Part shown: positions 6,947 to 24,130 of the stretch, one piece after another | How the letters are laid out: each line of letters begins with the position of its first letter | Position numbering within the stretch: position 1 is the stretch's first letter | Origin: Anaeromyxobacter soli | Lineage (GTDB): Bacteria; Myxococcota; Myxococcia; Myxococcales; Anaeromyxobacteraceae | NCBI RefSeq assembly: GCF_022808855.1 | Contig: NZ_JAKZLF010000001.1 | Span: 124,001-188,000, forward strand | Length of the DNA: 64,000 nucleotides | Direction: 5' to 3' | Program-made: the position numbers and the translations under genes | The notes under the pieces: model-generated | The model's database searches: none | What the model was told of the DNA's origin: nothing | Seen by the model: only the letters and a program-made list of their open reading frames with translations

Positions 6947-7603
6947 TCACTCGTCCACCCGGATGACGCCCCGCTTCAGCGCGAAGCGCACGAGCTCGGT
7001 CCGATTGTGCACGGCGAGCTTCTCCATGACGTGCTCGCGGTGGCTCATGGCGGTCTTCACGCTGATGCCGAGCACGTCGGCGACCTCCTTGTTGCTGCGT
7101 CCCTCGGCGACGAGCTTCAGGACCTGCTTCTCGCGGTCGGTGAGCGCCTCGTAGGGATCGGCGGCGCCGCCGGTCGTCGCCTGCCCGGCGTCCGCCATGG
7201 CGGTGCGCGCCACCTCGGGATCGAGCACGAGGCCGCCGCGGTTCACGGCGCGGATCGCGTTCGCGAGCTCGGAGCCGGCCGACTTCTTGAGGACGTAGCC
7301 CGCGACGCCGGCCTTGAGGAGCCTGCGGACGTACTCGCGATCCTCGTACTGCGACAGGATGAGGATCCGCGTGCGCCGGCCGAGCTTGTGGATCTCGAGC
7401 GCGGCCTCGATGCCTCCCAGCCCGGGCATGGCGATGTCCATGAGGAGGACGTCGGGATCGAGCCGCTCCACCGCGGCGATGGCCTCCGTCCCGTTCGCGC
7501 CCTCGCCCACCACCTCGATGTCCGGGTGGAGCTGCAGGAGCGCGCGGATGCCCTCGCGCAGGATGGCGTGATCGTCCACGATGACGACGCGGATCTTGCT
7601 CAT
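6947..7603 (-). CDS. NarL/FixJ-type response regulator
   Basis: 218 residues. An N-terminal receiver domain (about 3-120) has the acidic pocket VDDH, the phospho-acceptor Asp56 in LLMDIAMPG and the conserved Lys in GYVLKKS. A LuxR-type helix-turn-helix follows (about 150-215) with LTDREKQVLKLVAEGRSNKEVADVLGIS. It is the last gene of a six-gene overlapping chain; its ATG overlaps the stop of the histidine-kinase gene (7600-7603), so kinase and regulator form a cognate pair. By family it binds DNA as a phosphorylated dimer. Its targets are not visible; the cytochrome genes at the head of its own operon are the natural candidates. Confidence 0.93.
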   Translation of the reverse strand: MSKIRVVIVDDHAILREGIRALLQLHPDIEVVGEGANGTEAIAAVERLDPDVLLMDIAMPGLGGIEAALEIHKLGRRTRILILSQYEDREYVRRLLKAGVAGYVLKKSAGSELANAIRAVNRGGLVLDPEVARTAMADAGQATTGGAADPYEALTDREKQVLKLVAEGRSNKEVADVLGISVKTAMSHREHVMEKLAVHNRTELVRFALKRGVIRVDE

Positions 7604-9501
7604 GCGACGACTCCTCCCCGCCCTTCCCTCGCTCCCTCGGGCCGCGGCGGCTCGGCCGGTGGCAGCGGGACGCGCACCTGCACCCGCGTCCCCTTCCCCG
7701 GCGCGGAGTCTATCCGGGCCGAGCCCCCGAGGATCTCCGCTCGCTCACGAATTCCGAGGAGCCCCCACGGGCGGCGCCCCTCGCGCCGCGCCGCCGCCTC
7801 GACGTCGAAGCCGCGCCCGTCGTCCTCGATCTCGATCTGGAGCTGGTCGCCCTCGACGCCCACCTGGACGAGCACCGCGGTCGCCTGGGCGTGGCGCGCG
7901 ACGTTGCTCATCGTCTCCTGGCACATGCGGAAGAGCGCCGTCTCCAGCTCGGGCGGCAGGCGGCGGTCGAGCTCGCCGAACTCGCAGCGGACCGAGATCC
8001 CGCGCGTCTCGAGGCTCCGCTCCGCGTACCAGCGGATGGCGGAGAAGAGGCCCAGGTCGTCGAGCACCGAGGGCCGCAGGTCGAGGATGAGCCGGTGCAC
8101 GTCCTCGAGCGTGCGCACCGCGACCGCCTTCACCTCGTCGAGCCGCGGCGTCTTTCCCGCGCGCATGGCGTCCTGCGCGGCCTCGAGCCCCATGGCCAGC
8201 ACCGCGAGGCTCTGGGTCGTCTCGTCGTGCAGCTCCCGGGCGATCCGCTTCCGCTCGTCCTCCTGCGCGGTGATCACCTTGCTCAGGAGCTGGCCACGAT
8301 CCGCGTCGCGCTCGCGGACCTGCCCGAGCGCGTCGTTCAGCTCGCGGGTGCGCTCCTCCACGCGCTGCTCGAGCTGCGCGTTCACCTCGGCCACCTGCGC
8401 GAGCGTCGCGCGCAGCGCCCCGCGCATCCGCTCCAGCGCCTGGCCGAGCCGGCCGACCTCGTCCGAGCCGAGATCCGGGATGGGCCAGCCGAGCTCGCCC
8501 CGGGCGATCCGCTCCGCCTCGAAGGTGAGCACGCCCACCGGGCGCGTGACGCTCTGCGCGGCCCCCCACGCGAACGTGCCCACGAGCGCGAGCTGGAGGA
8601 AGAGCCCGAAGCCCACGATGTACCACGGCACCGCGCCCTGGGTCGGCAGCGCCTCGGCCATGGGCTGCCGCACGACGACGGCCCACGGCGCGCTCCCGAG
8701 CGGCGCGAAGGTCATGAGCTCGTCGTTGGTGGCGGGCGTGCTCCCGTCCTCGTGGCACTCCCGGCAGCTCACGGACGTGGTCCGGCGCGCCTCGAGCAGC
8801 TTTCGGACGCCGCCCGTGCATCCGGCCGCCCGCCCCGCCCGGCCGCGCTCGCTCGAGGCGATCACGTGGCCATCCGCGTCGAGGAGATCCGCGAAGCCGG
8901 TCCGGCCCCGGCGGAGATGCTGGAGCATGCGGCCGAAGTCGCGCCGGTCGGGCCGGAAGGTCCCGCCCATGACGCCGACGACCTCGCCCTTCCAGCTGCG
9001 CACCGGGACGAGCTCGTGGATCACCTGCCCGCGCGGCTCGAGGACGAGCCCCGACAGCCGCGGGCGGCCGCTCGCGAGCACCTCCTCCACCAGGGCCTGG
9101 GCGGCCAGCGGGACCTCGGTGACCGCACCGATCGGCTCCTCGGCGATCACGTTCTGCTCGCGGTCGAGCAGGAAGATCGTGTCGCGGTGCCGGAAGGACT
9201 CGTGGCCGGTGCGGACGAGGCGCCGCTCGTCGGAGAGATCCGCGTCGCCGAACCCCGCCGAGAGCGCCGAGGCGAGCCGCTGCAGCGACTCGAGGTCGGC
9301 CGTGAGCCCCTCGTCGAAGTGGGCGGCCACCGCGGTCGCCGCGGCGTTGCGGCCCGCCAGGATGCGCTCGTCGAAGCCGCGCATCCAGTAGAGGCCGGCG
9401 GCCGCCAGGAGCACGATCGGGAAGAAGATCCCGATCGCCATGAGCAGGTACACCCGCGTCCGCAGCGAGATCCCGCCGACCGCGTGGCTCGTCGTGCTCA
9501 T
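7600..9501 (-). CDS. NarX-type sensor histidine kinase with a c-type heme motif in its sensor domain
   Basis: 633 residues from the ATG at 9501, which overlaps the preceding stop by four bases. The chain is a membrane helix (about 15-38), a periplasmic region of about 240 residues resembling a Cache sensor, a second helix (about 285-310), HAMP, a coiled coil, HisKA_3 (ERKRIARELHDET, His near 422) and HATPase (NVARHA, DDGRGF, GLLGIRERAEILGG). Within the periplasmic part lies SCRECHEDG, a CxxCH heme-c attachment motif at about residue 245. A covalently bound heme sensing redox state or a gas is a reasonable inference. It should phosphorylate the downstream NarL-type regulator. Confidence 0.9.
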   Translation of the reverse strand: MSTTSHAVGGISLRTRVYLLMAIGIFFPIVLLAAAGLYWMRGFDERILAGRNAAATAVAAHFDEGLTADLESLQRLASALSAGFGDADLSDERRLVRTGHESFRHRDTIFLLDREQNVIAEEPIGAVTEVPLAAQALVEEVLASGRPRLSGLVLEPRGQVIHELVPVRSWKGEVVGVMGGTFRPDRRDFGRMLQHLRRGRTGFADLLDADGHVIASSERGRAGRAAGCTGGVRKLLEARRTTSVSCRECHEDGSTPATNDELMTFAPLGSAPWAVVVRQPMAEALPTQGAVPWYIVGFGLFLQLALVGTFAWGAAQSVTRPVGVLTFEAERIARGELGWPIPDLGSDEVGRLGQALERMRGALRATLAQVAEVNAQLEQRVEERTRELNDALGQVRERDADRGQLLSKVITAQEDERKRIARELHDETTQSLAVLAMGLEAAQDAMRAGKTPRLDEVKAVAVRTLEDVHRLILDLRPSVLDDLGLFSAIRWYAERSLETRGISVRCEFGELDRRLPPELETALFRMCQETMSNVARHAQATAVLVQVGVEGDQLQIEIEDDGRGFDVEAAARREGRRPWGLLGIRERAEILGGSARIDSAPGKGTRVQVRVPLPPAEPPRPEGAREGRGGVVA

Positions 9502-10079
9502 CGCCCGCTCACCCCGTGCAGGCTCCGCGCGATCCGCACGAGCTCGTCGAGATCTCCCTGCGACCGGAGCACCACCGCGCGGCCGTTCACCGACCACGAC
9601 AGCTCCTGCCACGCCACGCCCTCGACGAGCACCGACGCGAGCGTCGCGGGGTGCCCGCCCACGACGGTGGGACGGGCGCCGAGCACGGTGCGATCCGAGA
9701 GGAGCGCGGGCGCGATGTCCACGCCGGCGTCCGTGGCGGCGACGAGCTCGAGGCCGGTCCCGCCGTCGCGTGCGGCGAAGGCGAGGCGCACCGAGCCGTG
9801 GCGCCCGCCCGCCACGTGGATCGCCGCGGGCGGCCAGGCCAGGCGCTCGGGGTAGTAGCCGGGGAGGAGGATGCGCGCGCCGAGGCGGCGCTCCGCCTCC
9901 TGGATCGACGCGGCCCGGTGCGGCCCGGTGTCGCCGGCGAGCAGGCGCGGCAGCGCGCCGAGGCCGACGATCGCCGCCGCGGTCCCCGCCAGCACGTACG
10001 CGAGCGTCACCAGCATCCGGGCGATCTCCACGCCCGCGCCGCTCGCCCGCACCGCGCCCATGGCCGTACGCTCGGTCAT
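9498..10079 (-). CDS. Single-pass membrane protein with DUF4367-like C-terminal domain
   Basis: 193 residues. One membrane helix lies near 18-43, then an extracytoplasmic domain beginning EAERRLGARILLPGYYPERL and ending VNGRAVVLRSQGDLDELVRI. The pattern (an early 'P-x-Y-x-P-E' and a final 'eeL.riA.SL' helix) resembles DUF4367, a domain attached to anti-sigma or regulatory membrane proteins; this is my reading and needs a profile search. It overlaps the upstream M56-like protease gene and the downstream kinase gene by four bases each, so it is made in step with both. It could be a substrate or sensor partner of the protease. Confidence 0.65.
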   Translation of the reverse strand: MTERTAMGAVRASGAGVEIARMLVTLAYVLAGTAAAIVGLGALPRLLAGDTGPHRAASIQEAERRLGARILLPGYYPERLAWPPAAIHVAGGRHGSVRLAFAARDGGTGLELVAATDAGVDIAPALLSDRTVLGARPTVVGGHPATLASVLVEGVAWQELSWSVNGRAVVLRSQGDLDELVRIARSLHGVSGR

Positions 10080-11083
10080 ATCACGAAGAACAGCAGGGCC
10101 GCGAGGGCGCCGCCCGCGAGCGCCACGCGGACGCCAGCATACGGGAGCCGGGCGGGCGCACCGTCGAGCAGCCGCCGGCACCGGACCTCGATGTCGTGCG
10201 AGCGGACCCGCGCGAGCGGCTCGGCGAGCGCCGCGGCGAAGGGCAGCGAGCGCGGCACCCCGCTCGCGCCGGCCGTCGCGCGGTGCAGCTTGAGCAGCCC
10301 GCTCGCGAGCGCCAGCCGGTCGCCACACGCGGCGGCGCCGCGCTCGTCCGCGAGCCACTCCGCGTCGCGCGCCAGCGCACGAGAGACCACCTGGAACGCC
10401 GGGTTCCAGAACATCACCGCCCGGAGCCCCATGAGGACCCAGCTCTTGAGCGGGTCGCGACCCGCCACGTGAGCGAGCTCGTGGGCGAGCGCGGCTGCGA
10501 GCTCGTCGCGATCGAGCCGGGACAGCGTCCCCCCGGAGACGACGAGGGCCGGACGCCGGACGCCGGTGCAGAAGAGCACCGGCAGGTCGCGGCCGAGGAA
10601 GACGAGCGGCGGCTCCCTGACGCCGAGCGCCGCCGCGGCGCGCGGGAGCTCGGCGGCGAGGACGGCCGCGCTGGCGGGATCGGGCAGCTCGCCCGCCGGC
10701 GCGCGGCGGCCGCGGCCGCGCAGCACCGGCCAGAGGTCCATGAGGAACAGCCCCGCCCCCGCGGCCGCGAAGGCGGCGAGCCACCACCAGAACAGGCCGA
10801 CGCCGAGGAGCCGAACCGTCTCCCAGCTCCGCGCGTCGAAGAGCGCGAGGTCCTCCCGGAACCCCTCCTCCCCGCGGGAGGGGAAGAGCGCGACGAGCGC
10901 CGGAAACAGGACCAGCGGATAGCCCAGCGCCGTGAGGCGTAGGGCCATCCGCTGGCGAGGTTCGCGCACGCCCCAGCTCCGCACCAGCGCCTCGACGAAC
11001 AGCGAGGCGACGAGGGTGTGGAAGATGGCTTGCGCCAGGATGTCAGCCCACGACGCGCTTTCCACCGTGCCCCGGCGGCGCAT
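10076..11083 (-). CDS. M56 (BlaR1-like) integral-membrane zinc metalloprotease
   Basis: 335 residues with several membrane helices (for example near 12-32, 47-70, 90-115 and at the C-terminus). The zinc-binding LAHELAHVAGRD lies near residue 200 and the third-ligand motif DAEWLADE near 233, the signature of M56/M48 membrane proteases. The large receptor domain of BlaR1/MecR1 is absent. The start is uncertain: ATG at 11083 overlaps the cytochrome b gene by 41 bases, and a GTG at 11065 is an alternative. Its place between cytochrome genes and a two-component system suggests regulatory proteolysis rather than housekeeping, which is an inference. Confidence 0.8.
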   Translation of the reverse strand: MRRRGTVESASWADILAQAIFHTLVASLFVEALVRSWGVREPRQRMALRLTALGYPLVLFPALVALFPSRGEEGFREDLALFDARSWETVRLLGVGLFWWWLAAFAAAGAGLFLMDLWPVLRGRGRRAPAGELPDPASAAVLAAELPRAAAALGVREPPLVFLGRDLPVLFCTGVRRPALVVSGGTLSRLDRDELAAALAHELAHVAGRDPLKSWVLMGLRAVMFWNPAFQVVSRALARDAEWLADERGAAACGDRLALASGLLKLHRATAGASGVPRSLPFAAALAEPLARVRSHDIEVRCRRLLDGAPARLPYAGVRVALAGGALAALLFFVI

Positions 11084-11786
11084 CCCCGTGCCCGGCGTGC
11101 CCGTGCGCGTCCGGCGGCAGCCCGCCCTCGAGGCGCGCGAGCTCGAGCGGATGCTCGTGCACGTAGCGCTCCCTGCTCACCTTGCCGGTGAAGATCGACG
11201 CGTCGAACGGGAAGACGTCCGGGTTGAGGTGCGCGTTGAAGATGTGCCAGACGGTGATGACGAAGAAGGCCATGAGGCCCTCGTTCGAGTGGGCCACCTT
11301 CGCGGCCGGGATGATCTGGCCAGGGATGAGCGTCGCGGCCTTCACCGGGAAGAAGAGCATGAACCCGGTGACGACCATGATCACGTTCCCGGCGACGAGG
11401 CCCCAGTACTCGAACTTCTCCTTGTACGTGAAGCGATCGTACTGAGGGTGCTGATCCGTCATCCCCAGGTAGTAGCGCAGCTGCTGGATCGCGTCCTCGA
11501 AGTCCCGCTTGGTCGGGACCATCGAGAAGCCGATCTTGCGCGACAGGATCGCCGCGATGCCGCTCGCGAAGTGCACGATCGTGGAGAGGGCCAGCACGAC
11601 CCCGAAGAAGCGGTGGATCCAGCGCGTGTTGTCGATGCCGCCGAACAGGTCGACGAACGTGTGCGCCCACCCCGTCGTGTAGAACTTCTGCGGCAGGCCG
11701 GTGAGGCACAGCGCCGCGAAGGTCGTCATCGTGACGAAGTGCTCGATCCGCTGCTTGAGGCTGAAACGGACGATGTAGTTGCTCAT
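11043..11786 (-). CDS. Membrane cytochrome b subunit (FdnI/thiosulfate-reductase-gamma type)
   Basis: 247 residues with four or five membrane helices carrying conserved His residues (RIEHFVTM, RWIHRFFG, HFASG, HSNEGLMAFF, WHIFNAHLNPDVF), as in di-heme b subunits that oxidise or reduce quinone for a periplasmic partner. A His/Gly-rich tail ends the protein. The ATG at 11786 overlaps the stop of the nonaheme cytochrome gene by four bases. Inference: quinol electrons pass from the b hemes to the membrane-anchored nonaheme cytochrome, a two-gene quinol:cytochrome c module. The direction of flow cannot be told. Confidence 0.88.
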   Translation of the reverse strand: MSNYIVRFSLKQRIEHFVTMTTFAALCLTGLPQKFYTTGWAHTFVDLFGGIDNTRWIHRFFGVVLALSTIVHFASGIAAILSRKIGFSMVPTKRDFEDAIQQLRYYLGMTDQHPQYDRFTYKEKFEYWGLVAGNVIMVVTGFMLFFPVKAATLIPGQIIPAAKVAHSNEGLMAFFVITVWHIFNAHLNPDVFPFDASIFTGKVSRERYVHEHPLELARLEGGLPPDAHGHAGHGDAPPGHGGKRVVG

Positions 11787-12823
11787 CGATTCACCACGAC
11801 GCGCCAGAGGTGCAGCGCGATCTGGAGCACGAGCCCGCCCACCATGAACGGGATCATCAGCTTGTAGAAGAGCTGCACCGCCCAGACGATCGGCGCCTTC
11901 TCGGGCGTCGGCTCGTAGTGCGAGAGCCACGCCTTCGGGAAGCTCTCGCTCGCCCCCTCGTGGCACTTCGCGCAGGTCTTCTGGAGGTTCGCCGCCATCA
12001 CGGAGGAGTTCGGGCTGTCGGACTTCTCGATGTCGTGCACGCCGTGGCAGTCGGTGCAGACGGCGGCGAGGCGCACGCCCGGGCCCTTCTTCTTGCCCTG
12101 CTGCAGGCTCGCGGCCATGCCGTGGAAGTCGGCGAGGTAGGTGTCGACGACCTTCGTCGAGAGGCCGTACCGCTTCATGAGCTTCTCGTCGGTGTGGCAG
12201 CGGCCGCAGATCTCCGGGGTCCGCGCCGCGAGCGCGCCGTCGCGCGGATCCGTCGTGTCGTGCGCGCGGTGACAGTCGGTGCAGACCGGCACGTCGGAGC
12301 TCGAGCCGGCCAGGCGGCCGTGCACGCTCCGCGCGTAGATGGCGGCCTCCTTGCCGTGGCAGCCCGAGCACATCTGCGAGATGCGCGCCCGAGGCTGCCC
12401 GGGCCGGGAGATGTCGTGAGCGCCGTGGCAGTCGACGCACAGGGCGGCCTTGTCGTTGCCCTTCGCCATCACGGCGAAGTGCACGCCGTCGAGCGTCTTC
12501 GTGTAGTTGGCGAAGTGGCAGCCCTTGCACTGCTCGTAATACGCGCGGGTGACCTCGCGACGCGTCTTGAACTTGAGCTCGCCGGTCGCGTGGTCGCTCG
12601 TCTTGTCGGTGTGACATTCGGTGCACCGGAGCATCTCGCCGTGCACCGACTTGGCGAACGCTTCCTGGTTCACGTAGAGCGACAGCTTCTCGCCACTCGG
12701 CAGGTCGTACGTCTGGTCCGGGTCGCTGTGGCAGCCCAGACAGTCCTCGGACTCCGCCGGGATTCCGGCCCAGGCCGGGGATGCGGCGAAAGCGACGAGG
12801 AGCGGCAGCAGAAATCTCTTCAT
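11783..12823 (-). CDS. Membrane-anchored nonaheme cytochrome c
   Basis: 346 residues from the ATG at 12823, chosen because it begins the signal peptide MKRFLLPLLVAFAASPAWA; a GGGTGGGG element lies just upstream. Nine CxxCH motifs follow in order: CLGCH, CTECH, CKGCH, CVDCH, CSGCH, CTDCH, CGRCH, CTDCH and CAKCH. Additional His residues are well placed as distal ligands. A C-terminal helix (FYKLMIPFMVGGLVLQIALHL) anchors the protein in the inner membrane with its hemes in the periplasm, as in NapC/Cbc-like quinol-oxidising cytochromes. It heads a six-gene overlapping chain and is coupled to the cytochrome b gene. Confidence 0.92.
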   Translation of the reverse strand: MKRFLLPLLVAFAASPAWAGIPAESEDCLGCHSDPDQTYDLPSGEKLSLYVNQEAFAKSVHGEMLRCTECHTDKTSDHATGELKFKTRREVTRAYYEQCKGCHFANYTKTLDGVHFAVMAKGNDKAALCVDCHGAHDISRPGQPRARISQMCSGCHGKEAAIYARSVHGRLAGSSSDVPVCTDCHRAHDTTDPRDGALAARTPEICGRCHTDEKLMKRYGLSTKVVDTYLADFHGMAASLQQGKKKGPGVRLAAVCTDCHGVHDIEKSDSPNSSVMAANLQKTCAKCHEGASESFPKAWLSHYEPTPEKAPIVWAVQLFYKLMIPFMVGGLVLQIALHLWRVVVNR

Positions 12824-13361: not shown

Positions 13362-14063
13362 TCACACCGAGAGGAAGGCCGTCGCGAGCGCGCGCCAGCC
13401 GGACTCGCCGATGAGCCACGGCGCAGGAGCGACGAGCTCGCCTCCGTCCGCCGCGGCGAACCCGAGCTGGTCCTCGAGGAAGCGGTTCCAGCGCACGGCC
13501 TCGCGTCGCATCCAGCCCTCCGCAGCCTCGCCGCGCGGCAGCGAGGCCCACGATCCATCCGCGGGGGAGATCCGGACGAGCCACCCGCGCCCGTAGCCGT
13601 CTCGCTTGACGAGCGCGGGGTCGCGCACCACCGCCGCGTTCACGCCCGCGACGACGCCCGGCATCGGCGCGCGGACGCGCACCTCGCGGCCTCCGCCCGA
13701 GAGCGTCGCGATGGTCTCGCCGCGCGCGACCTGCGTCCCTGCCCGCGGCACCTCCACCGAGGACACCGCGGGGAGCAGGCGCTGCGCGAGGCCGTCGATG
13801 CCGAGCTCGAGGGCCCCGCCGATGCGCGGCTGGAGCCAGGTGTGGCCCGGCGCGTAGACGAGGCCCGGCCGGAAGAGCACGCCGGACACGCTGCGCAGCC
13901 CGAGCCGCCGCTCGCGCCGCCTCTCGATGGCGCGCATCGCGAGCGCCAGCACGACGGCAGGGACCGCGAAGAGCGCGATCATGGCGAGGAAGACCCCGAA
14001 CCGCGCCACGATCCCGCCGAGGAACACGCCGACCGCCTGCAAGACCTCGAGCACCGCGGACAT
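13362..14063 (-). CDS. Membrane-anchored GcvH-like protein lacking the lipoyl lysine (second copy)
   Basis: 233 residues; the ATG at 14063 has GAGGAGGGGG upstream. An N-terminal helix (about 10-42) is followed by a lipoyl/GcvH-like barrel (about 65-165) with LVYAPGHTWLQP, LELGIDGLAQRLL and the loop GETIATLSGGGREVRVRAPMPG. Aligned with E. coli GcvH (GDTFGVVESVKAASDVYSP), the lipoylated Lys position is Gly, so the protein cannot carry lipoate there. The C-terminal 60 residues are helical, as in the other copy. It is separated from the triheme cytochrome gene by a 206-base C/G-rich gap. A structural role in the NrfD-type complex is an inference. Confidence 0.75.
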   Translation of the reverse strand: MSAVLEVLQAVGVFLGGIVARFGVFLAMIALFAVPAVVLALAMRAIERRRERRLGLRSVSGVLFRPGLVYAPGHTWLQPRIGGALELGIDGLAQRLLPAVSSVEVPRAGTQVARGETIATLSGGGREVRVRAPMPGVVAGVNAAVVRDPALVKRDGYGRGWLVRISPADGSWASLPRGEAAEGWMRREAVRWNRFLEDQLGFAAADGGELVAPAPWLIGESGWRALATAFLSV

Positions 14064-14269: not shown

Positions 14270-14611
14270 TCACTGCGCGTGACAGGTGGTGCAGTCGTCG
14301 AACCCGAACGCCTGCTTCCCGTGGCACGCGCCGCAGGCTTCTCCCTTCTCCATCGCCGCGTGCGTCACCTTCGCGCCCGGGCGCTCCCCCGACCGGCCGA
14401 GGATGCTGAACCTCCCGGCGTGGCACTCCACGCAAGCCGGCCTCTTCGCGTCGAGGTGGCTGTCGTGGCGGAAGGTCACCACCCCCGGGCTGTCCGCGCC
14501 CTGCGGGAGCTGCAGCGGCTGCGGCAGCCGCGGCAGGCCTTCGGCGAGCGCGCCGCCCGCGATGAGCGCCCCGAGCACCGCGCCGATCCTCATGAGCTTC
14601 GTCGTCGTCAT
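14270..14611 (-). CDS. Triheme c7-type periplasmic cytochrome
   Basis: 113 residues from the ATG at 14611, which has GGAG seven bases upstream and opens a signal peptide ending near LIAGGALA. The mature protein carries CVECH, CGACH and CTTCH, together with the HDSHLDAKRPACVECH arrangement and the final FDDCTTCHAQ of the c7-type triheme family; distal His ligands are visible. It should shuttle electrons in the periplasm. It lies between two GcvH-like genes in an operon encoding HybA-like and HybB-like proteins, so it is probably the electron acceptor or donor of that membrane complex. Confidence 0.9.
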   Translation of the reverse strand: MTTTKLMRIGAVLGALIAGGALAEGLPRLPQPLQLPQGADSPGVVTFRHDSHLDAKRPACVECHAGRFSILGRSGERPGAKVTHAAMEKGEACGACHGKQAFGFDDCTTCHAQ

Positions 14612-14625
14612 GGCCGTCTCCGTCG

Positions 14626-15342
14626 CTAGGTGAGGAAGTGCTCGCGGGCGAGCCGCTCCCACTCGTCGCCGGCGAGCGCGTGGGCGATGCCGTGGATGGG
14701 CGTGCCGCCGTCCTGCAGCACGTGGGCGATCTCGGGGCTCATCCGCAGGGCGAGCCGCTCGCCCGCGTCCTCGAGGAAGTGGCGCGCGGGGCCGTCCGTG
14801 AGGAGCTGGCGGAGGTTCGCGGCGAGGCGCGACGCCTTCACCTTGAACAGCCAGCCCGCGCCGTACGGGTCCTCGAGGCCGTCCTTGCCGTCCCGGATCG
14901 CCGTGTTCACCGCGACGACCGTGCCGTCGATCGGGGAGAGGAGCGGGACCGTCCGGTCCGAGTCGCCCATCGCGAAGGCGGCCTCACCCTGCGCGACCCG
15001 CTCGCCGATGGCGGGGAGGTCGAGGCGCGCCGGGCCGACGAGCTTGTGGGCGAAGTCGTCCACGCCCACCGCGATGAGCCCGTCGTTCTCGAGCCGCGCC
15101 CAGGTGTGGCCGGGGTGCAGGTGCAGGCCCGCGGGGAGCTGGAACCACCCGGCGGTGGGCCGTGCCGCGCGCACGGCGGCGGGGCGGGCGACGGGACGCG
15201 GCGCGGTGACGGGGACCACCGCCTCCTTGGCGCGGCCGCCCTGCACGTACCGCCAGAACGGGATGAACATGAGCAGGTAGGCGACGGCGAGGCCGTACTC
15301 GAGGAGCTTGGCCGGGTAGATGCTCAGGAAGTCATGAGCCAT
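14626..15342 (-). CDS. Membrane-anchored GcvH-like protein lacking the lipoyl lysine (first copy)
   Basis: 238 residues. A membrane helix (about 13-32) and an Ala/Pro linker lead into a GcvH-like barrel (about 68-165) with HLHPGHTWARLENDG, IAVGVDDFAHKLVG and GEAAFAMGDSDRTVPLLSPIDG. In alignment with GcvH the lipoyl-Lys position is Asp, so lipoylation at the usual site is excluded. No glycine-cleavage T or P protein is near. The gene sits 11 bases after the HybB-like gene. Its partner copy at 13362 shares the same helix-barrel-helical-tail plan with little sequence identity, which suggests an old duplication or a heterodimer. Function unknown; probably an accessory subunit. Confidence 0.8.
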   Translation of the reverse strand: MAHDFLSIYPAKLLEYGLAVAYLLMFIPFWRYVQGGRAKEAVVPVTAPRPVARPAAVRAARPTAGWFQLPAGLHLHPGHTWARLENDGLIAVGVDDFAHKLVGPARLDLPAIGERVAQGEAAFAMGDSDRTVPLLSPIDGTVVAVNTAIRDGKDGLEDPYGAGWLFKVKASRLAANLRQLLTDGPARHFLEDAGERLALRMSPEIAHVLQDGGTPIHGIAHALAGDEWERLAREHFLT

Positions 15343-15353
15343 GGCGTCCTCCC

Positions 15354-16583
15354 TCAGTGATGCCCTTCCGCGAAGCGCGGGTCTTCGCGGAGGATGGGCA
15401 TGCGGTTCACGATCCACCGGAACGCCAGCACGCCGATGGTCACGAGGGTGATCGAGACGATCACCTCGCTCACCGACGGCACGTAGCGGACCGGCTGGTT
15501 CCAGTTGAATGCGACGATCGAGACGTTGAGGCGGTTCAGGATGATGGAGAGGACGCCCATCACGGCGGCGACCCGGACGAGCGTCACGTTGCCGTTCCGC
15601 GAGCCGTAGGCGAAGAGGAGCGCCGGGACGAGGACGAACCCGACGATCTCCACGAGGAACCACGCCCCGTAGCCGGTGGCGAGGTAGCCCCAGGCGTGCC
15701 CGTCGATGACCCCCTGCAGCTTGAGGAAGAAGTAGGCGAACATCACGAGCGCCCCCGCCTTCCCGAGCCCCAGCGTCAGCTTGTCGATGTCGACGTGCTG
15801 CCCGGCGACCTGGGAGTGGAACGCGCGGTGCGAGAGCATCGACTCGACGATGACCATCGAGATCCCCGCGATGATCGCGGAGATGAAGAAGAAGACGAAG
15901 ATGTACGGCGTGTACCAGAGCGGGTGGAGCTTCGTCGGCGCGAGCAGGAAGAGCGAGCCGAGCGCGCTCTGGTGCATCGTCGAGAACATCACGGACAGGA
16001 CCGTGAGCCCGATGAGCGCGTTGCGCATGACCGAGTGGAGCTTCTTCCAGCCGAGCCACTCGAACACGGGGACCGTGAACTCGAGGAGGAGCACGGTCGT
16101 GTAGCACATGACGCACCAGGCGACCTCGAACAGCGCCGACGCGGTGCCGTAGTTGAAGATCGCCATGACGATGTTCCACGGCCGGCCGAGGTCGGCGAGC
16201 AGCCCGATGACGGCCATCACGTAGCCGAGGAAGGCCGTGAGGATCGCCGGCCGCTCGATCGGGTGGTACGCCTTCAGCCCGAAGAGCTGGACGGTCGCGC
16301 CGATGGTGAACCCACCCGCGGCGAGCGCGATCCCGGTCATCATGTCGAACCCGATCCAGAGGCCCCACGGGGCGGTCTGGGACAGGGCCGTCGTGGCGCC
16401 GAGACCGGCGATGAACCGGTAGACGAGGATCGGGACGCCGACGACCAGGATGGCCGCGGCCACCGCGTTCGCGGGCGTGCAGCAGGAGCGGACGTACTCG
16501 CGCACGCTCATGCCGAGCAGGATCTTCTCGCGGACGAACGACGGGTGCGCCGCGACGGCGGCACCGGCCTGCGCGCTAGCCAT
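15354..16583 (-). CDS. HybB/NrfD-family quinone-binding membrane subunit
   Basis: 409 residues with about ten membrane helices. FDMMTGIALAAGGFTIGATV, DLGRPWNIV, STMHQSALGSLFLL and TKLHPLWYTP are typical of HybB, the integral subunit of NrfD/PsrC type in hydrogenase-2-like complexes. Such subunits hold no cofactor and link quinone to a periplasmic iron-sulfur protein. The start at 16583 overlaps the HybA-like stop by eight bases (ATGGCTAG). No hydrogenase or molybdoenzyme catalytic subunit lies in the operon, so the periplasmic partner is more likely the triheme cytochrome. Confidence 0.92.
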   Translation of the reverse strand: MASAQAGAAVAAHPSFVREKILLGMSVREYVRSCCTPANAVAAAILVVGVPILVYRFIAGLGATTALSQTAPWGLWIGFDMMTGIALAAGGFTIGATVQLFGLKAYHPIERPAILTAFLGYVMAVIGLLADLGRPWNIVMAIFNYGTASALFEVAWCVMCYTTVLLLEFTVPVFEWLGWKKLHSVMRNALIGLTVLSVMFSTMHQSALGSLFLLAPTKLHPLWYTPYIFVFFFISAIIAGISMVIVESMLSHRAFHSQVAGQHVDIDKLTLGLGKAGALVMFAYFFLKLQGVIDGHAWGYLATGYGAWFLVEIVGFVLVPALLFAYGSRNGNVTLVRVAAVMGVLSIILNRLNVSIVAFNWNQPVRYVPSVSEVIVSITLVTIGVLAFRWIVNRMPILREDPRFAEGHH

Positions 16584-17469
16584 GGCGGTCCTCCTTTGCG
16601 TTCTCCTGCGCGTCGCCCTCGACCGTGTCGCGGCGGCGCGAGAAGGCGTAGAGCCCCATCAGCAGCGGGGGCCACAGGGTCATCACGAACGGCGGGGCGC
16701 CCAGCGCGCCGGACACGAGGCTCGGGATGTCCTTCTCCGGGACGTCGGTGCGGAGCGCGAGCTTCTCGAGGTCGACGTCGGTGATGTACAGCCAGCTCGT
16801 CCCGCCGGCCTCGTGCTCGCCGAAGACGTGCGGCACGTACTTGCCGGGGTTCGTGTAGATGCGGGTCTTCGCGAGCTCGATGAGCTCCGCCCGGTGACCG
16901 AAGGTGAGCGCGCCGGAGGGGCACACCTCGGTGCACGCGGGCTTCAGCCCCTTCGCCTGGCGGTCCGCGCAGAACCCGCACTTCCGGACGCGCGGCTTCC
17001 AGCTGTCGTACTCGTACTTCGGCACGTCGAACGGGCAGGCGATCATGCAGTAGCGGCAGCCCATGCACTTCGACGGGTCGTAGACCACCGGCCCGGCCGG
17101 CGTCTTGTCCATGGCCCGGACCGGGCACGCGGACGCGCACCCGGGCGCGAGGCAGTGCATGCACTGCTTCTTCGCGAAGCGGACGGTCCCGTCCTCCTTC
17201 TCGGCGCGGTTCACGACGGTGAAGACCTGGGGGGCGGTGTCGCGCCGCTGCTTCATCACGTCGTCGCTCGCCGGCGGCGCCGGGAGCGCGTTCTTCTCGG
17301 CACACGCGGCCTCGCAGGCGCGGCAGCCGACGCAGAGGGTCGTGTCGACGAGCACGCCTGGCGTGTCCGTCCCCTCCGCGTGCGGCAAGGCCGCCGACGC
17401 CGACGCGGCGCCCGCGGCCCCTGCCGTCACTGCGGCGATCTTGAAGAACCCTCTGCGTCCGATCCTCAT
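16576..17469 (-). CDS. HybA-like Tat-exported four-cluster ferredoxin subunit with C-terminal anchor
   Basis: 297 residues. The Tat motif GRRGFFKIAA starts the protein. Four iron-sulfur motifs follow: CVGCRACEAAC, CMHCLAPGCASAC, CMGCRYCMIAC, and CGFC with a later CTEVC, giving sixteen cysteines for four [4Fe-4S] clusters. A C-terminal helix near 255-275 (APPFVMTLWPPLLMGLYAF) anchors it on the periplasmic side, as in HybA. It is coupled by overlap to the HybB-like gene and preceded by a 24-residue membrane peptide. It should wire the quinone site to the periplasmic cytochrome. Confidence 0.93.
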   Translation of the reverse strand: MRIGRRGFFKIAAVTAGAAGAASASAALPHAEGTDTPGVLVDTTLCVGCRACEAACAEKNALPAPPASDDVMKQRRDTAPQVFTVVNRAEKEDGTVRFAKKQCMHCLAPGCASACPVRAMDKTPAGPVVYDPSKCMGCRYCMIACPFDVPKYEYDSWKPRVRKCGFCADRQAKGLKPACTEVCPSGALTFGHRAELIELAKTRIYTNPGKYVPHVFGEHEAGGTSWLYITDVDLEKLALRTDVPEKDIPSLVSGALGAPPFVMTLWPPLLMGLYAFSRRRDTVEGDAQENAKEDRHG

Positions 17470-17494: not shown

Positions 17495-17569
17495 CTAGCG
17501 GGCGGCGACGAGGTTCAGGGTTCCGAGCACCGCGACTCCGAAAAGCGCGAACACGAAGGCGAACATCAT
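17495..17569 (-). CDS. 24-residue single-helix membrane microprotein at the head of the HybAB-like operon
   Basis: The sequence reads MMFAFVFALFGVAVLG followed by TLNLVAAR and a TAG stop: almost wholly one membrane helix with a short basic end. The ribosome site AAAGGAG sits seven bases before the ATG at 17569 and is among the best Shine-Dalgarno matches in the window. The stop is 25 bases before the HybA-like ATG. Size, topology and position recall CydX-type small subunits of respiratory complexes, but no homology is claimed. It is shorter than usual annotation limits, so it is probably unannotated. It could instead be a leader peptide controlling hybA-like translation. Confidence 0.65.
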   Translation of the reverse strand: MMFAFVFALFGVAVLGTLNLVAAR

Positions 17570-17998
17570 GGCGTGCTCCTTTCGATTCCTGCGGGGGTGG
17601 TGGCCTTCCCGCTTGGTCGCTAGAGCACGCGCCGGGCCATCGCCGCGGCGGGCGCGGCCGGAGCGTCGGTTCGGGATTGTTTACGCAGGGTTACTGCGGG
17701 GGCGCCGCGTCCACCCCTCGCCGCGGCTCCCCGCTCGAGCGGCGCCGGCCGTCGAGAATCTCGACGACCCGCAGCGGGGGCCGCTCGTATGGCGGGAACC
17801 TTCGCGCGCGATCACGCGCGGTTGCGAGCGATCGCGGGCGCGATGGCGAGTTACTCCACGGCCGTGGAGGGATTCAACGGCGCGCGTGGACGCCGAGACC
17901 TGCGCTCCCGCAGGAGACGGCCCATGCCCCGCGCGCATGCGATCCCGGGTGGAGGCGACCGGACGCGCGCGACCGTTCGTCGCGCGCGCGCTGCCACG
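17570..17998. promoter_or_regulatory. Upstream region of the HybAB-like operon with two dyads
   Basis: 429 bases with no credible gene. It holds the dyad CGCAG-GGTTA-CTGCG (17684-17698) and a perfect 16-base palindrome CTCCACGGCCGTGGAG (17854-17869). Both lie upstream of the minus-strand microprotein start and could be operators. No strong -35/-10 pair or sigma-54 element was recognised. Confidence 0.4.
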
Positions 17999-19888: not shown

Positions 19889-21289
19889 CTACCCGCCCGC
19901 GCTCGGCTCGCTTCCTGGCGCGAGCTCCGCCTCCTCGCCGTCCCTGCGGAGCCCCCACTTCTTCATCTTGTTGTAGAGGGTCACGCGGTCGATCCCGAGG
20001 ATGCGGGCCGACTGGCTCACGTTCCCGTTGGTGTGCGCCAGCATCGCCGCGACGTGCCGCCGCTCGACCTCCTCGAGCGACGCGAGCGTCCCGTGCCGGG
20101 GCGGCGCGTCGAGCTTGGTGGGGAGCCCGAGATCGGAGAGCTGGATGACGGGCCCCGAGGCGACGACGGCGCCGCGCTCGAGCACGTTCCGGAGCTCGCG
20201 CACGTTGCCCGGCCAGTCGTGCGCCATGAGGGCGCTCATCGCCTCGGGCGTGAGCCCCTCGATCCGCCGCTTCATCTCCACCGAGAGCCGCTCGACGAAG
20301 TTCTCGACGAGGAGCGGGATGTCCTCCCGCCGCTCGCGCAGCGGCGGGATGAGGATCGGGATGACGTTCAGGCGGTAGAACAGGTCCTCGCGGAACTTGC
20401 CCTCGCGGGCCGCGCGGCGCAGGTCGCGGTTCGTCGCCGCCACGATCCGGACGTCCACCTCGATGGGCTCGTTGCCGCCCACGCGATGGAAGCGGCGCTC
20501 CTCGAGCACGCGCAGCAGATCGAGCTGCAGCTTCGGACCGATGTCGCCCACCTCGTCGAGGAACAGGGTGCCGCCGTGCGCCGCCTCGAACTTCCCCTTT
20601 CGCCGCGAGATGGCGCCGGTGAACGCCCCCTTCTCGTGACCGAACAGCTCCGACTCGAGCAGGCTCTCGGTCAGCGCCGCGCAGGAGACCGCCACGAACG
20701 GTCCCTCCGTCCGCGGGCTCTCGGCGTGGATGGCCCGGGCGAGCACCTCCTTGCCGCTGCCGGACTCGCCGAGGACGAGGATCGTCGAGTTCGAGCGCGC
20801 GGCGGTGCGGGCGAGCTCGAACACGGACTGCATGGCCGGGCTCTTCGAGAGCAGGTCGCGGAAGCGGTACTCCTGCCGGAGCGCCTGGCGCAGCACCGCG
20901 TTCTCCCGCACGAGCGACTGCTGGGAGACGATCTTCTGCATCATGAGCGACAGCTCCTCGGGATCGAACGGCTTCACGAGGTAGTCGTAGGCGCCCATCT
21001 TCATCGCGCTCACGGCGGTGTCGACCGTGGCGTAGGCCGTCATGATCACGACGGCGACGTCCGGCTGGAGCTTCTTCGCCTCCTCGAGCACCTGGAGGCC
21101 GTCCATCCCCGGCATCTTCAGATCGACGATCATGATGGACCAGCGCTCTCTCTTGAGCGCCTCGATCGCCGAGCGGCCCTCGGGCATCGTCCCGACGGTG
21201 TAGCCGTCCTTCTCGAGCCAGCCGCCGAGCGACTCCCGGACGATCTCCTCGTCGTCCACCACCAGGATGCGGGTCCTCTCGTTCGCCAT
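19889..21289 (-). CDS. NtrC-type sigma-54-dependent response regulator
   Basis: 466 residues. A receiver domain (1-125) has Asp56 in IMIVDLKMPG, followed by an AAA+ domain with Walker A GESGSGKE, the sigma-54 contact loop GAFTGA, Walker B TLFLDEVGD and arginine fingers. A Fis-type helix-turn-helix closes the protein (SQSARILGIDRVTLYNKMKK). GAAGGAG precedes the ATG at 21289. It lies four bases after the archaemetzincin gene, which follows a heme-type sensor kinase gene, so the kinase is the probable phosphodonor. It should activate sigma-54 promoters; none was firmly identified in the window. Confidence 0.95.
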   Translation of the reverse strand: MANERTRILVVDDEEIVRESLGGWLEKDGYTVGTMPEGRSAIEALKRERWSIMIVDLKMPGMDGLQVLEEAKKLQPDVAVVIMTAYATVDTAVSAMKMGAYDYLVKPFDPEELSLMMQKIVSQQSLVRENAVLRQALRQEYRFRDLLSKSPAMQSVFELARTAARSNSTILVLGESGSGKEVLARAIHAESPRTEGPFVAVSCAALTESLLESELFGHEKGAFTGAISRRKGKFEAAHGGTLFLDEVGDIGPKLQLDLLRVLEERRFHRVGGNEPIEVDVRIVAATNRDLRRAAREGKFREDLFYRLNVIPILIPPLRERREDIPLLVENFVERLSVEMKRRIEGLTPEAMSALMAHDWPGNVRELRNVLERGAVVASGPVIQLSDLGLPTKLDAPPRHGTLASLEEVERRHVAAMLAHTNGNVSQSARILGIDRVTLYNKMKKWGLRRDGEEAELAPGSEPSAGG

Positions 21290-21293
21290 GGCT

Positions 21294-21827
21294 TCACGCT
21301 CCTTCGGAGACGTCGTCCAGGTGGCTGCGGCACTCGGGGCAGAGATCGACGCCCTTCGCGTCCACCTCGCGGACCGCGGGCGAGCGCGACATGACGCAGC
21401 GCTCGTGTCCGCAGTGGACGAGGCCGAAGGCGTGCCCGACCTCGTGCACCGCCTCCTTGGCGAGCCGCAGGGCGAGCAGCGCCCGCCCGCCGGGGCCGGG
21501 CTCGACGAGCCGCTTCAGCGACACCACCGCCGCGCCGCCGCCGAGCTGGGCCTCGCCGAAGACGTAGGTGAGGATGGGGATGAACAGGTCGCCGTCGGTG
21601 ATGCCGAGCACCTTCCCGGAGCCCGGCCCGGACTCGCCGAGCCAGCTCAGGATCGGCGTCGTCCGGTGCTGCTTGCGCTTCTCGTCGTAGGCGTGGCGCG
21701 GCCGCTCCGGGGACTCCCAGAGGAAGACGGGGCGGCCGAAGGCGGCGGCGAGGTGGACGCGGACGTGCTCCATCAGCTCGCGATCGACCTCTCCCTCACC
21801 GATCCACCAGACGAAGATCGAGAGCAT
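21294..21827 (-). CDS. amzA: Archaemetzincin zinc metalloprotease
   Basis: 177 residues. The C-terminal half shows the archaemetzincin signature: HEVGHAFGLVHC, the downstream CVM, and the CPEC pair, giving the HExxHxxGxxHC catalytic zinc site plus the four-Cys structural zinc site. Length matches the family. No signal peptide is evident, so it is probably cytoplasmic. It sits between a sensor kinase (51-base gap) and an NtrC-type regulator (4-base gap), an unusual operon for this protease. A regulatory proteolysis role is possible but inferred from position only. Confidence 0.9.
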   Translation of the reverse strand: MLSIFVWWIGEGEVDRELMEHVRVHLAAAFGRPVFLWESPERPRHAYDEKRKQHRTTPILSWLGESGPGSGKVLGITDGDLFIPILTYVFGEAQLGGGAAVVSLKRLVEPGPGGRALLALRLAKEAVHEVGHAFGLVHCGHERCVMSRSPAVREVDAKGVDLCPECRSHLDDVSEGA

Positions 21828-21878: not shown

Positions 21879-23651
21879 TCACCCCGCCCCTCCCGCCGGC
21901 ACGACCGGCGCGGCCGCGTCCTCCGCGGGGCGCGGCGGGATCCGCAGCGCGATGCGAGTCCCCTTCCCCACCTCGCTCGTGAGCTCGACCTTGCCGCCGT
22001 GCCGCTCGACGATGCCGTAGACGACGGAGAGCCCGAGCCCCGTGCCGCGCTCCTTCGTCGTGAAGAACGGGTCGAAGATCTTGGAGAGGTGCTCGGGCGC
22101 GATGCCGGGGCCGGTGTCGGCGAACGAGAGCTCCACCCACCGGCCGCCCTCCACGAGCGCGCTCTCGATCTCGAGCCGGCCGCTGCGCCCCATCGCCTCG
22201 CACGCGTTCATGATGACGTTCACGCACGCCTGGCGGAGCTGGCCGAAGTCGGCGGCGACCACGGGCACCTCGGCGAGGCGCTTCTCGAGCGTGATGCCCT
22301 GGATGTGGATCTGGTTCGCGAGCAGCTGCAGGGCCTCCTCCACGACGTCGTTCACGTTCACGTCCTTCACGGCCAGCGGCCGCTCGCGCGCGAAGTCGAG
22401 CAGGTTGCGGACGATGGCGCTGCAGCGCTCGGTCTCGCGCTCGACGAGGAGGAGGTGCTTGATGAGCGCGCGGCGCGTCGACTCGTCCGGGACGCCCGCC
22501 TCGAGCGTCCGCACGATGAGCTTCGCGAAGGTGAGGATGCCGGCGAGCGGGTTGTTGATCTCGTGCGCGATCGAGGCGGAGAGCTTGCCGAGGGAGGAGA
22601 GCTTCTCGTTCCGGACGAGCTGATCCTGCGCCGAGCGGAGCGCCGCCGTCCGCTCCTGCACCTGCCGCTCCAGGCTGTGCATGAGCGCGTCGAGGTCGCC
22701 CTTCGCCTTGCGCAGGGACCGCGTCATCTCGTTGAACGACGCGCCGAGGAGGCCGAGCTCCCCGCTCCAGGTGACGGGGATCTCGAGCTCGAGCTGGTCG
22801 CGGGCGACCCGGCGGGTCGCCTGGACGAGCGCCGCGACGGGGCGCATCAGGTGCTGGCCCGTGAAGAACCAGACGAACAGGCCGAGGAGCGCGGCGGCGG
22901 CGGCCGCGGCCGCGAGCGTGCGCCAGCGGAACCCGGCGGTCTCCTCGTCGAGGCGCGACAGCGACACCCCGACGTCGAGGACGCCGAGCACCTTCCGCTC
23001 GGCCGGGTGCGCGTGGCAGGCGGCGGTGGAGCAGGACGCCTCGTTGTAGATGGGGGTGATGATCCCGAGGACGCGGTGGCCGTTCGGGGTGAAGACGCGG
23101 CTCCGCTCCTTGAGGTCCACCCGGTGGAGCGGCTCGTCGGCGGCGTGGCACCCGGAGCACGCCTCCGCGTTGCGATCGACGCTGCGGCCGATCTCCACCC
23201 GCTCCGTCGAGTAGGTGATCCGCCCCTCTGCGTCCATCATGCGCACCATCTCGATGCCGGGCTGGCGCCCGATGTCCTGCATGATGAGGTAGGCGTCGCC
23301 CCGGCGGTCCTGGAGCATGGCGCGGTGGAGCGCGTTGCGGATGGTGTGGCTGAGGAGATCGGACTCCGCGACGACCTGCGACAGCAGGTGACGCTGCACC
23401 GCCACCTCGGCGAAGAAGAACGCGGCGACGACGCCCAGGGCGACGACGGCGATCATCGTGAAGAACCGGGTCGAGAGCCGCTGCTGCCAGGGAATGTCGA
23501 AGCCGAGGTCGCCGACCGAGCGCGGCGCGATCGCGCGCGCGAGCCGCTCGAGGGCGCGGGCGTCGTCGGAGGGCGGCGCAGGGCGCTCCGCGGGCCCCCG
23601 CTCGCCTGTCGGCGGCGTGCTCTCGGCCGGGTGCCCTGCGGCCCTGGACAT
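21879..23651 (-). CDS. Sensor histidine kinase with two c-type heme motifs
   Basis: 590 residues from the ATG at 23651, preceded by GGGAGGGGGAGG. Order: cytoplasmic N-terminal tail, helix (about 62-85), periplasmic domain, helix (about 245-265), HAMP, HisKA with [12 protein letters not shown] (His near 360) and HATPase ([35 protein letters not shown]). The periplasmic domain has CSGCH (near 164) and a CX4CH-type CSTAACH (near 207), both plausible covalent heme sites; ENEx-like ITYSTE precedes the first. It heads the operon with archaemetzincin and the NtrC-type regulator and is its probable kinase. Confidence 0.9.
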
Positions 23652-23751
23652 CCTCCCCCTCCCGGAAGACCTCCGTCGCGACGCTCGCCCACCGATACGC
23701 CCGCGCCTGGGACGATAGCCTTGTCCCACATCAACACCGTTGCTTTCCGGC

Positions 23752-23777
23752 GCGCAATCTTTGGGGGTGGATTGCGC
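23752..23777. promoter_or_regulatory. 8-base perfect dyad upstream of the heme sensor kinase
   Basis: GCGCAATC and GATTGCGC flank a 10-base spacer, about 100 bases before the kinase ATG. The geometry suits an upstream activator site for an NtrC-type dimer, possibly the regulator encoded in this operon. No matching -24/-12 element was found, so the role is open. Confidence 0.4.
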
Positions 23778-23879
23778 TGTATTGTCGCACCTTTCGAACG
23801 TGCGGGCAGAGTCGTCGAGCCGCCATCCTCCGGCGCGCGGCGAACCCTCGCGCGGGCGGCACGAGACTCGGGCGCGGCG

Positions 23880-24130
23880 AACGATGCGGCTGTCCATGCG
23901 GCCTCCGGTCGCACCCTGGGCCGCCCTCCCCAGCGCTGCGTCAATTGCCCCAGCGCAACGCAGCCGACGCCCCAGCCCGCGGCGGAACCCATGGAGATTG
24001 CAGGGTTCTCCCTCGCGCCCGGATGGCACGGGGGTCGCAATGGCCTGCGGCACCCAGGGGTTTCCACGGGAGGGGGCCGGGCTGGACGCGCGTGCGAGCG
24101 CTGGTCGCGCGCGTCCAGCCCCGCTTTTTT
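23880..24130 (+). ncRNA. Candidate structured RNA ending in an intrinsic terminator before purU
   Basis: The 497-base gap between the divergent kinase and purU genes contains no credible gene on the plus strand but several local pairings: GCTGCG...TTGC-CCCAGC-GCAA-CGCAGC around 23934-23962, CCCTGGG pairing with CCCAGGG, and GGAGA with TCTCC. A strong terminator ends the stretch. It could be a small RNA, or a purU leader with attenuation. The 5' end is arbitrary and no known RNA family was matched with confidence. Confidence 0.3.
24081..24130 (+). terminator. Intrinsic terminator or attenuator 18 bases before purU
   Basis: GCTGGACGCGCG (24081-24092) pairs perfectly with CGCGCGTCCAGC (24108-24119) across a 15-base loop and is followed by CCCGC and six T residues ending at 24130. 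The next gene's GTG is at 24149 on the same strand, so this hairpin either ends a separate RNA or attenuates purU. Confidence 0.8.

Follow-up and report, generated by a model that had tools for sequence, protein, structure and literature searches.

Proteins of 24 residues are encoded by genes that are too small for routine gene finders. The 64,000-nucleotide stretch of Anaeromyxobacter soli DNA analyzed here (the window) contains such a short open reading frame (ORF), apparently encoding a single membrane helix, at the head of an operon for a respiratory-type redox complex. Two questions arise, namely, whether this ORF is a genuine gene and, if so, with which of the neighboring proteins its product works.

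A 24-codon gene and its conservation

A first-pass annotation of this DNA had proposed a complete 24-residue gene with an AAAGGAG ribosome-binding site, an ATG start, and a TAG stop located 25 nt before the start codon of the HybA-like gene (ATG at 17469), and the coordinates read exactly so (Table 1). The ORF begins with two ATG codons, either of which is a possible start. We screened the window for ATG-initiated ORFs of 18–40 codons that are preceded by an AGGAG or GGAGG site and contain a 17-residue segment with a mean Kyte-Doolittle hydropathy above 2.0. The microprotein was the only ORF recovered, and the same screen of 40 first-order Markov sequences of the window length found none. The G+C content of the three codon positions, 0.67/0.38/0.88, follows a coding pattern. 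The protein matched none of the Pfam and NCBIfam models.

Table 1. Features of the operon and its flanks in the window
Feature	Position	Strand	Evidence
Microprotein ORF, 24 codons, single helix, MMFAFVFALFGVAVLGTLNLVAAR	17495..17569	-	Sequence read; profile matches in 17 of 24 family genomes
Shine-Dalgarno site AAAGGAG of the microprotein	17576..17582	-	Read directly; 6 nt 5' of the ATG
Sigma-54-type -24/-12 promoter-like site, TGGCCCG-GCGC-GTGCT (GG-N10-GC)	17624..17639	-	Score 0.88 of consensus; 70 nt upstream of the microprotein ATG
HmcB/HybA-like Tat-type iron-sulfur protein	16576..17469	-	NCBIfam HmcB 4.9e-102, 341 bits (cutoff 420)
HmcC/HybB-like NrfD-family quinone-site membrane subunit	15354..16583	-	Pfam NrfD; NCBIfam HmcC 1.1e-141, 472 bits (cutoff 550)
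GcvH1, third large operon gene: N-terminal HmcD-like helix and GcvH domain	14626..15342	-	Pfam GCV_H 1.5e-16
Triheme cytochrome c7-like protein	14270..14611	-	Pfam Cytochrome_C7 1.9e-12; NCBIfam nanowire_3heme
GcvH2, second, more divergent membrane GcvH-like protein	13362..14063	-	Homologs overlap the GcvH1 search, 30-40% identity; travels with GcvH1
Multiheme cytochrome c and cytochrome b561-like (FdnI-like) genes	11043..12823	-	Downstream; models and synteny
NtrC-type sigma-54 activator	19889..21289	-	Found upstream in all family hyb operons that were mapped in full

To survey conservation, the hybA ortholog was located in the genomes of the family Anaeromyxobacteraceae, and the DNA upstream of it was read. 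A short hydrophobic frame with a Shine-Dalgarno site precedes hybA in all 8 genomes of the genus in which the hybA-like (first-type) operon was found. Such a frame is present also in four other genera, where sequence identity drops to as low as 25% and length and hydrophobicity are kept; the search of relatives that the first-pass annotation had suggested thus yields frames of 22–25 residues in five genera. The ribosome-binding site is AAAGGAG in 12 of the 14 hybA-upstream copies (AAGGGAG and AAGGGGG in the remaining two), and the 17-residue Kyte-Doolittle mean falls between 2.25 and 2.83 in 15 copies of 22–25 amino acids (aa). Altogether, a profile search identified 27 copies, 22–25 aa long, in 17 of the 24 Anaeromyxobacteraceae genomes. 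A probable copy from another family (genome G138, MILAISFIPFALILIATSVKAASKAS) lies at the very start of a contig (L061, position 1). Profile matches in G026 and G137 were partial and embedded in long reading frames and were left out of the copy count. In relatives outside the order (L034-L060, L091-L098), which carry HybA-like and, often, GcvH1-like genes, no microprotein-like ORF was found upstream of either.

Within the genus, the variable columns are distributed among the three codon positions as 6/5/11, and the pooled pN/pS is approximately 0.39, single pairs being statistically weak with only 24 codons. Compared with neutral simulations, retention of an open frame of equal hydrophobicity was improbable in each of six more distant comparisons (P 0.0009-0.03; the pairs share branches and are not independent). 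Lack of conservation, a broken frame, or the absence of a synonymous-site excess, any of which was to count against the first-pass proposal, was looked for, and none was found. We are highly confident that this ORF is a real, conserved gene for a single-helix protein, the product of which is expected to be translated and inserted into the membrane. A chance ORF in a GC-rich intergenic region would, similarly, be very short and match no database model, but such an origin is extremely improbable, being already contradicted by the conservation and multiple copies of the microprotein, which are not expected by chance.

An Hmc-related operon

The microprotein gene is followed, in order, by the genes for the HmcB-like protein, the HmcC-like protein, GcvH1, the c7-like cytochrome, GcvH2, the multiheme cytochrome c, the cytochrome b561-like protein, and a metallopeptidase-like protein. 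For GcvH2, the translation tested had no Pfam match. Calling the two core proteins HybA/HybB-like, as originally done, is roughly correct, but they score highest with the HmcB and HmcC models, compared with 234 bits for HybA and 259 bits for HybB. Given that both Hmc scores are under the NCBIfam equivalog cutoffs, these proteins appear to be related to the Hmc complex rather than members of it; we retain hyb as the operon name.

Upstream of the operon are genes for a membrane histidine kinase, an archaemetzincin-like protein (21294-21827, HEVGHAFGLVHC), and the NtrC-type activator, and this order is kept in nearly all hyb operons of the family; in the G009 operon, the archaemetzincin-like gene had no match. 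The window encodes two membrane histidine kinases (21879-24053 and 7600-9612) with the CXXCH-type motifs CSGCH and CRECH in their sensor regions, which suggests that these are heme-binding redox sensors.

Most of the mapped microprotein genes appear to be preceded by a sigma-54-type promoter. In the two nearest relatives, the equivalent site lies at 68-72 nt, and among the 20 microprotein copies scanned, 17 have such a site (scores 0.88-0.95) either 43-90 nt upstream or, where another ORF intervenes, at about 259 nt; the window background for sites scoring 0.8 or more is 0.048 per 100 nt. No sigma-70-like promoter was found. The intervening ORF, which we denote CPYL, encodes about 72 residues including cysteines, and in most relatives its stop codon overlaps the microprotein ATG (ATGA), consistent with translational coupling. 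In the subclade of the window, CPYL does not precede the microprotein, and 70 nt, rather than about 259 nt, separate the promoter-like site from the ATG. CPYL is conserved (M[ST]CPYLxxVxMVFCxAxxxKKLxPxDRxTTASxCEG...), is ATGA-coupled to either the microprotein or hybA, occurs upstream of hybA in loci L011, L012, L013, L016, L018, L019, and L023-L026, and is covered by no model in Pfam or NCBIfam. A GcvH-like domain in L034 is preceded, within one fused protein, by a similar motif, CPHL...FCREAP.

The microprotein tracks GcvH1

The first-pass annotation assigned the microprotein to HybA and HybB. Across genomes, however, it is GcvH1 rather than HybA that the microprotein accompanies. Cassettes of the form microprotein-GcvH1(-GcvH2), devoid of HybA/HybB, stand alone in G001, G002, G003 (two), G004, G006, G011, G014, G015, G016, and G017. 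Conversely, the hyb operons of G013, G014, and G015 lack GcvH1, GcvH2, and the microprotein, all three, and retain CPYL, HybA, HybB, c7, the multiheme cytochrome, cytochrome b, and an M56-like peptidase; in G014 and G015, the missing genes are present as a cassette elsewhere in the genome. Most often, the microprotein and GcvH1 genes are separated by hybA and hybB; G003 has a second hyb operon in which the microprotein directly precedes GcvH1 and has its own sigma-54-like site.

The family genomes contain 28 GcvH1-type genes (27 from the family search plus a helix-only form in G009), and the microprotein belongs to the transcription unit of 26 of these (inferred across contig breaks for G012 and G018). 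Two operons of genus g6, in G020 and G023, encode GcvH1 without a detectable microprotein, so the latter is not essential to every GcvH1-type complex; given the probable copy in another family, g6 has probably lost the gene. Among the hyb operons, 15 contain both genes, 2 GcvH1 only, 3 neither, and none the microprotein only (Fisher p = 0.009); the GcvH1-less operons fall in one clade, and with this relatedness, the true number of events is smaller, with few independent co-losses (one to three). The GcvH1 of G009 has been shortened to 52 residues, which comprise only the N-terminal helix (L112, 7261-7440), and the microprotein is retained, pointing to this helix as the partner region.

Some genomes carry several paralogous microprotein-GcvH1 cassettes. 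Two very similar ones in G003 (locus L099, G003:C1:2184000-2203000, at 7927-8789 and 11558-12424), about 3.6 kb apart, are probably a recent duplication of the pair.

GcvH1 combines an HmcD-like helix with a GcvH domain

Like the glycine cleavage H protein, GcvH1 contains a GcvH domain, which also matches PDB 3a8i (1.2e-16). Unlike that protein, it has a membrane helix, is encoded outside a glycine-cleavage operon, and lacks the lipoyl-lysine: in all 28 GcvH1 homologs, the corresponding column holds D, E, G, A, T, Q, H, or V, and never Lys. The N-terminal helix is the most widely shared part of the protein and, in other phyla, has the motif TKGxEYLLxIxFLLLFIPFWR. Among 17 N-termini from GcvH1-type or helix-only proteins, 12 match the NCBIfam model of HmcD (NF045712; NF045716 is HmcE), the best at 7.2e-9, with the scores in the family genomes below the 34-bit cutoff and no match for the helix encoded in the window. 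Moreover, GcvH1 is encoded directly after the HmcC-like gene, which is the HmcD position, whereas the microprotein gene precedes hybA or GcvH1. Judging from these matches and gene order, HmcD seems to correspond to the N-terminal helix of GcvH1, which would make the microprotein an additional small protein. Identity of the microprotein itself with HmcD was rejected, given that no match to NF045712 was found at E values up to 10, nor any profile-profile similarity to the HmcD-like helix.

Fusions of an HmcD-like helix with a lipoyl-lysine-less GcvH domain are encoded beside HmcBC-like genes in several phyla. The helix-only protein of G009 seems to have reverted to the state of a free HmcD-like peptide. 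In genus g6, short open frames at G022:C7:115557 and G023:C52:719 (L175, L176) match the HmcD model weakly, and no other operon proteins were matched there.

Relation to known small subunits

Respiratory operons can encode tiny accessory subunits with a single helix, among them CydX (YbgT) of cytochrome bd and CcoQ of the cbb3 oxidase. The microprotein resembles these and HmcD in being very short, with one predicted transmembrane helix, conserved at the peptide level, and encoded with redox-complex genes. It differs from CydX and CcoQ in the complex involved and in its place at the operon head, theirs being after the catalytic subunits. No profile match linked it to CcoQ or to CydX/YbgT in Pfam and NCBIfam, and a likeness to CydX noticed by eye (an aromatic N-terminus and GxxN) was dropped for lack of a profile match.

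According to the first-pass annotation, no small subunit was known for NrfD/HybB complexes; HmcD, a described small hydrophobic member of the Hmc complex, the closest characterized one, is such a subunit (PMC10924467). Like HmcD of Desulfovibrio, the microprotein is a small hydrophobic protein with a single helix encoded together with HmcB/HmcC-type genes; unlike HmcD, it matches neither the HmcD model nor the HmcD-like helix profile and is not encoded directly after HmcC. Compared by description, Alternative complex III is likewise an NrfD-family complex with lineage-limited extra subunits, ActG and ActH, differing from the microprotein in that ActH is periplasmic, with ActG having one predicted helix; it took mass spectrometry and cryo-EM to assign ActH (PMC5928083). 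Our literature search found nothing on GcvH with NrfD or on Anaeromyxobacter microproteins. Thus, tiny single-helix respiratory subunits are a known kind, and as far as the compared libraries show, this microprotein family and its partner are undescribed.

Possible roles of the microprotein

What has been demonstrated computationally is that the gene exists and is conserved, that it is genetically linked to GcvH1, and that promoter-like sites are present. We consider it fairly likely that the microprotein is a second small membrane subunit of HmcBC-type complexes, or an assembly factor, dedicated to their HmcD-GcvH subunit. A single-pass inner-membrane protein of 22-25 residues, the gene for which usually comes first or second after a sigma-54 promoter, would serve as a subunit or an assembly or stability factor for GcvH1, itself the putative HmcD-GcvH fusion subunit of a quinone/cytochrome c redox complex of the HmcBC type. 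Most likely, its helix would pack against the HmcD-like helix of GcvH1 and, hence, against the HmcC-like subunit; both this physical contact and any effect on assembly are what we infer from sequence.

Alternatively, the HybA/HybB (HmcBC) pair itself could include the microprotein as a subunit, in which case the linkage to GcvH1 would be a by-product of shared operons. Its position immediately upstream of the hybA-like gene in most genomes fits this explanation, and the two readings overlap, given that a standalone GcvH1 could join a HybAB complex in trans. Nevertheless, we regard it as unlikely in view of the GcvH1 cassettes without hybAB, the three GcvH1-less hyb operons that also lack the microprotein, and the hyb operon in which the microprotein lies before GcvH1.

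A role in regulation or stress, such as tuning of the neighboring membrane sensor kinase, with mere co-regulation by sigma-54, would agree with the appearance of most copies in one sigma-54-type regulon and with the kinase and NtrC-type genes being conserved neighbors of the hyb operon. The mapped standalone cassettes, however, lack orthologs of the conserved kinase and activator and always combine the microprotein with GcvH1, which makes such a role improbable. Still more improbable is a regulatory leader peptide, functionless in itself, the translation of which would control the downstream operon. This alternative, raised in the first-pass annotation, is compatible with the place of the microprotein in the window and in the standalone cassettes, where no other ORF separates it from the promoter, as is typical of leader ORFs. 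It is disfavored by conservation of amino acids rather than codons, with a constant hydrophobic length of 22-25 residues across five genera, and by the distance from the microprotein stop to hybA of merely 18-39 nt. Furthermore, there is no terminator-like site on the minus strand, no Rfam match, and no run of regulatory codons, the leader RNA is less stable than its shuffled versions (z +1.44), and in many relatives, the microprotein is the second gene, coupled to CPYL.

If the microprotein is, as we favor, a partner of GcvH1, a broader but tentative possibility, to which we give less than even credence, is that the microprotein and the HmcD-GcvH fusion constitute a portable, lipoyl-free, sigma-54-controlled two-protein membrane module that docks on HmcBC-type quinone complexes. 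Gene finders miss tiny subunits of respiratory complexes. As the one described here is conserved, occurs in multiple copies, and is linked to a specific partner, straightforward genetic experiments in Anaeromyxobacter cultures can test its role. In addition, a GcvH-like protein that is lipoyl-free and joined to an HmcD-like helix emerges as a subunit that recurs in HmcBC-type electron-transfer operons. If the module exists, GcvH, originally a carrier of lipoyl groups, would have had its fold converted to a scaffold in respiration, one dependent on a helper helix of 24 residues.
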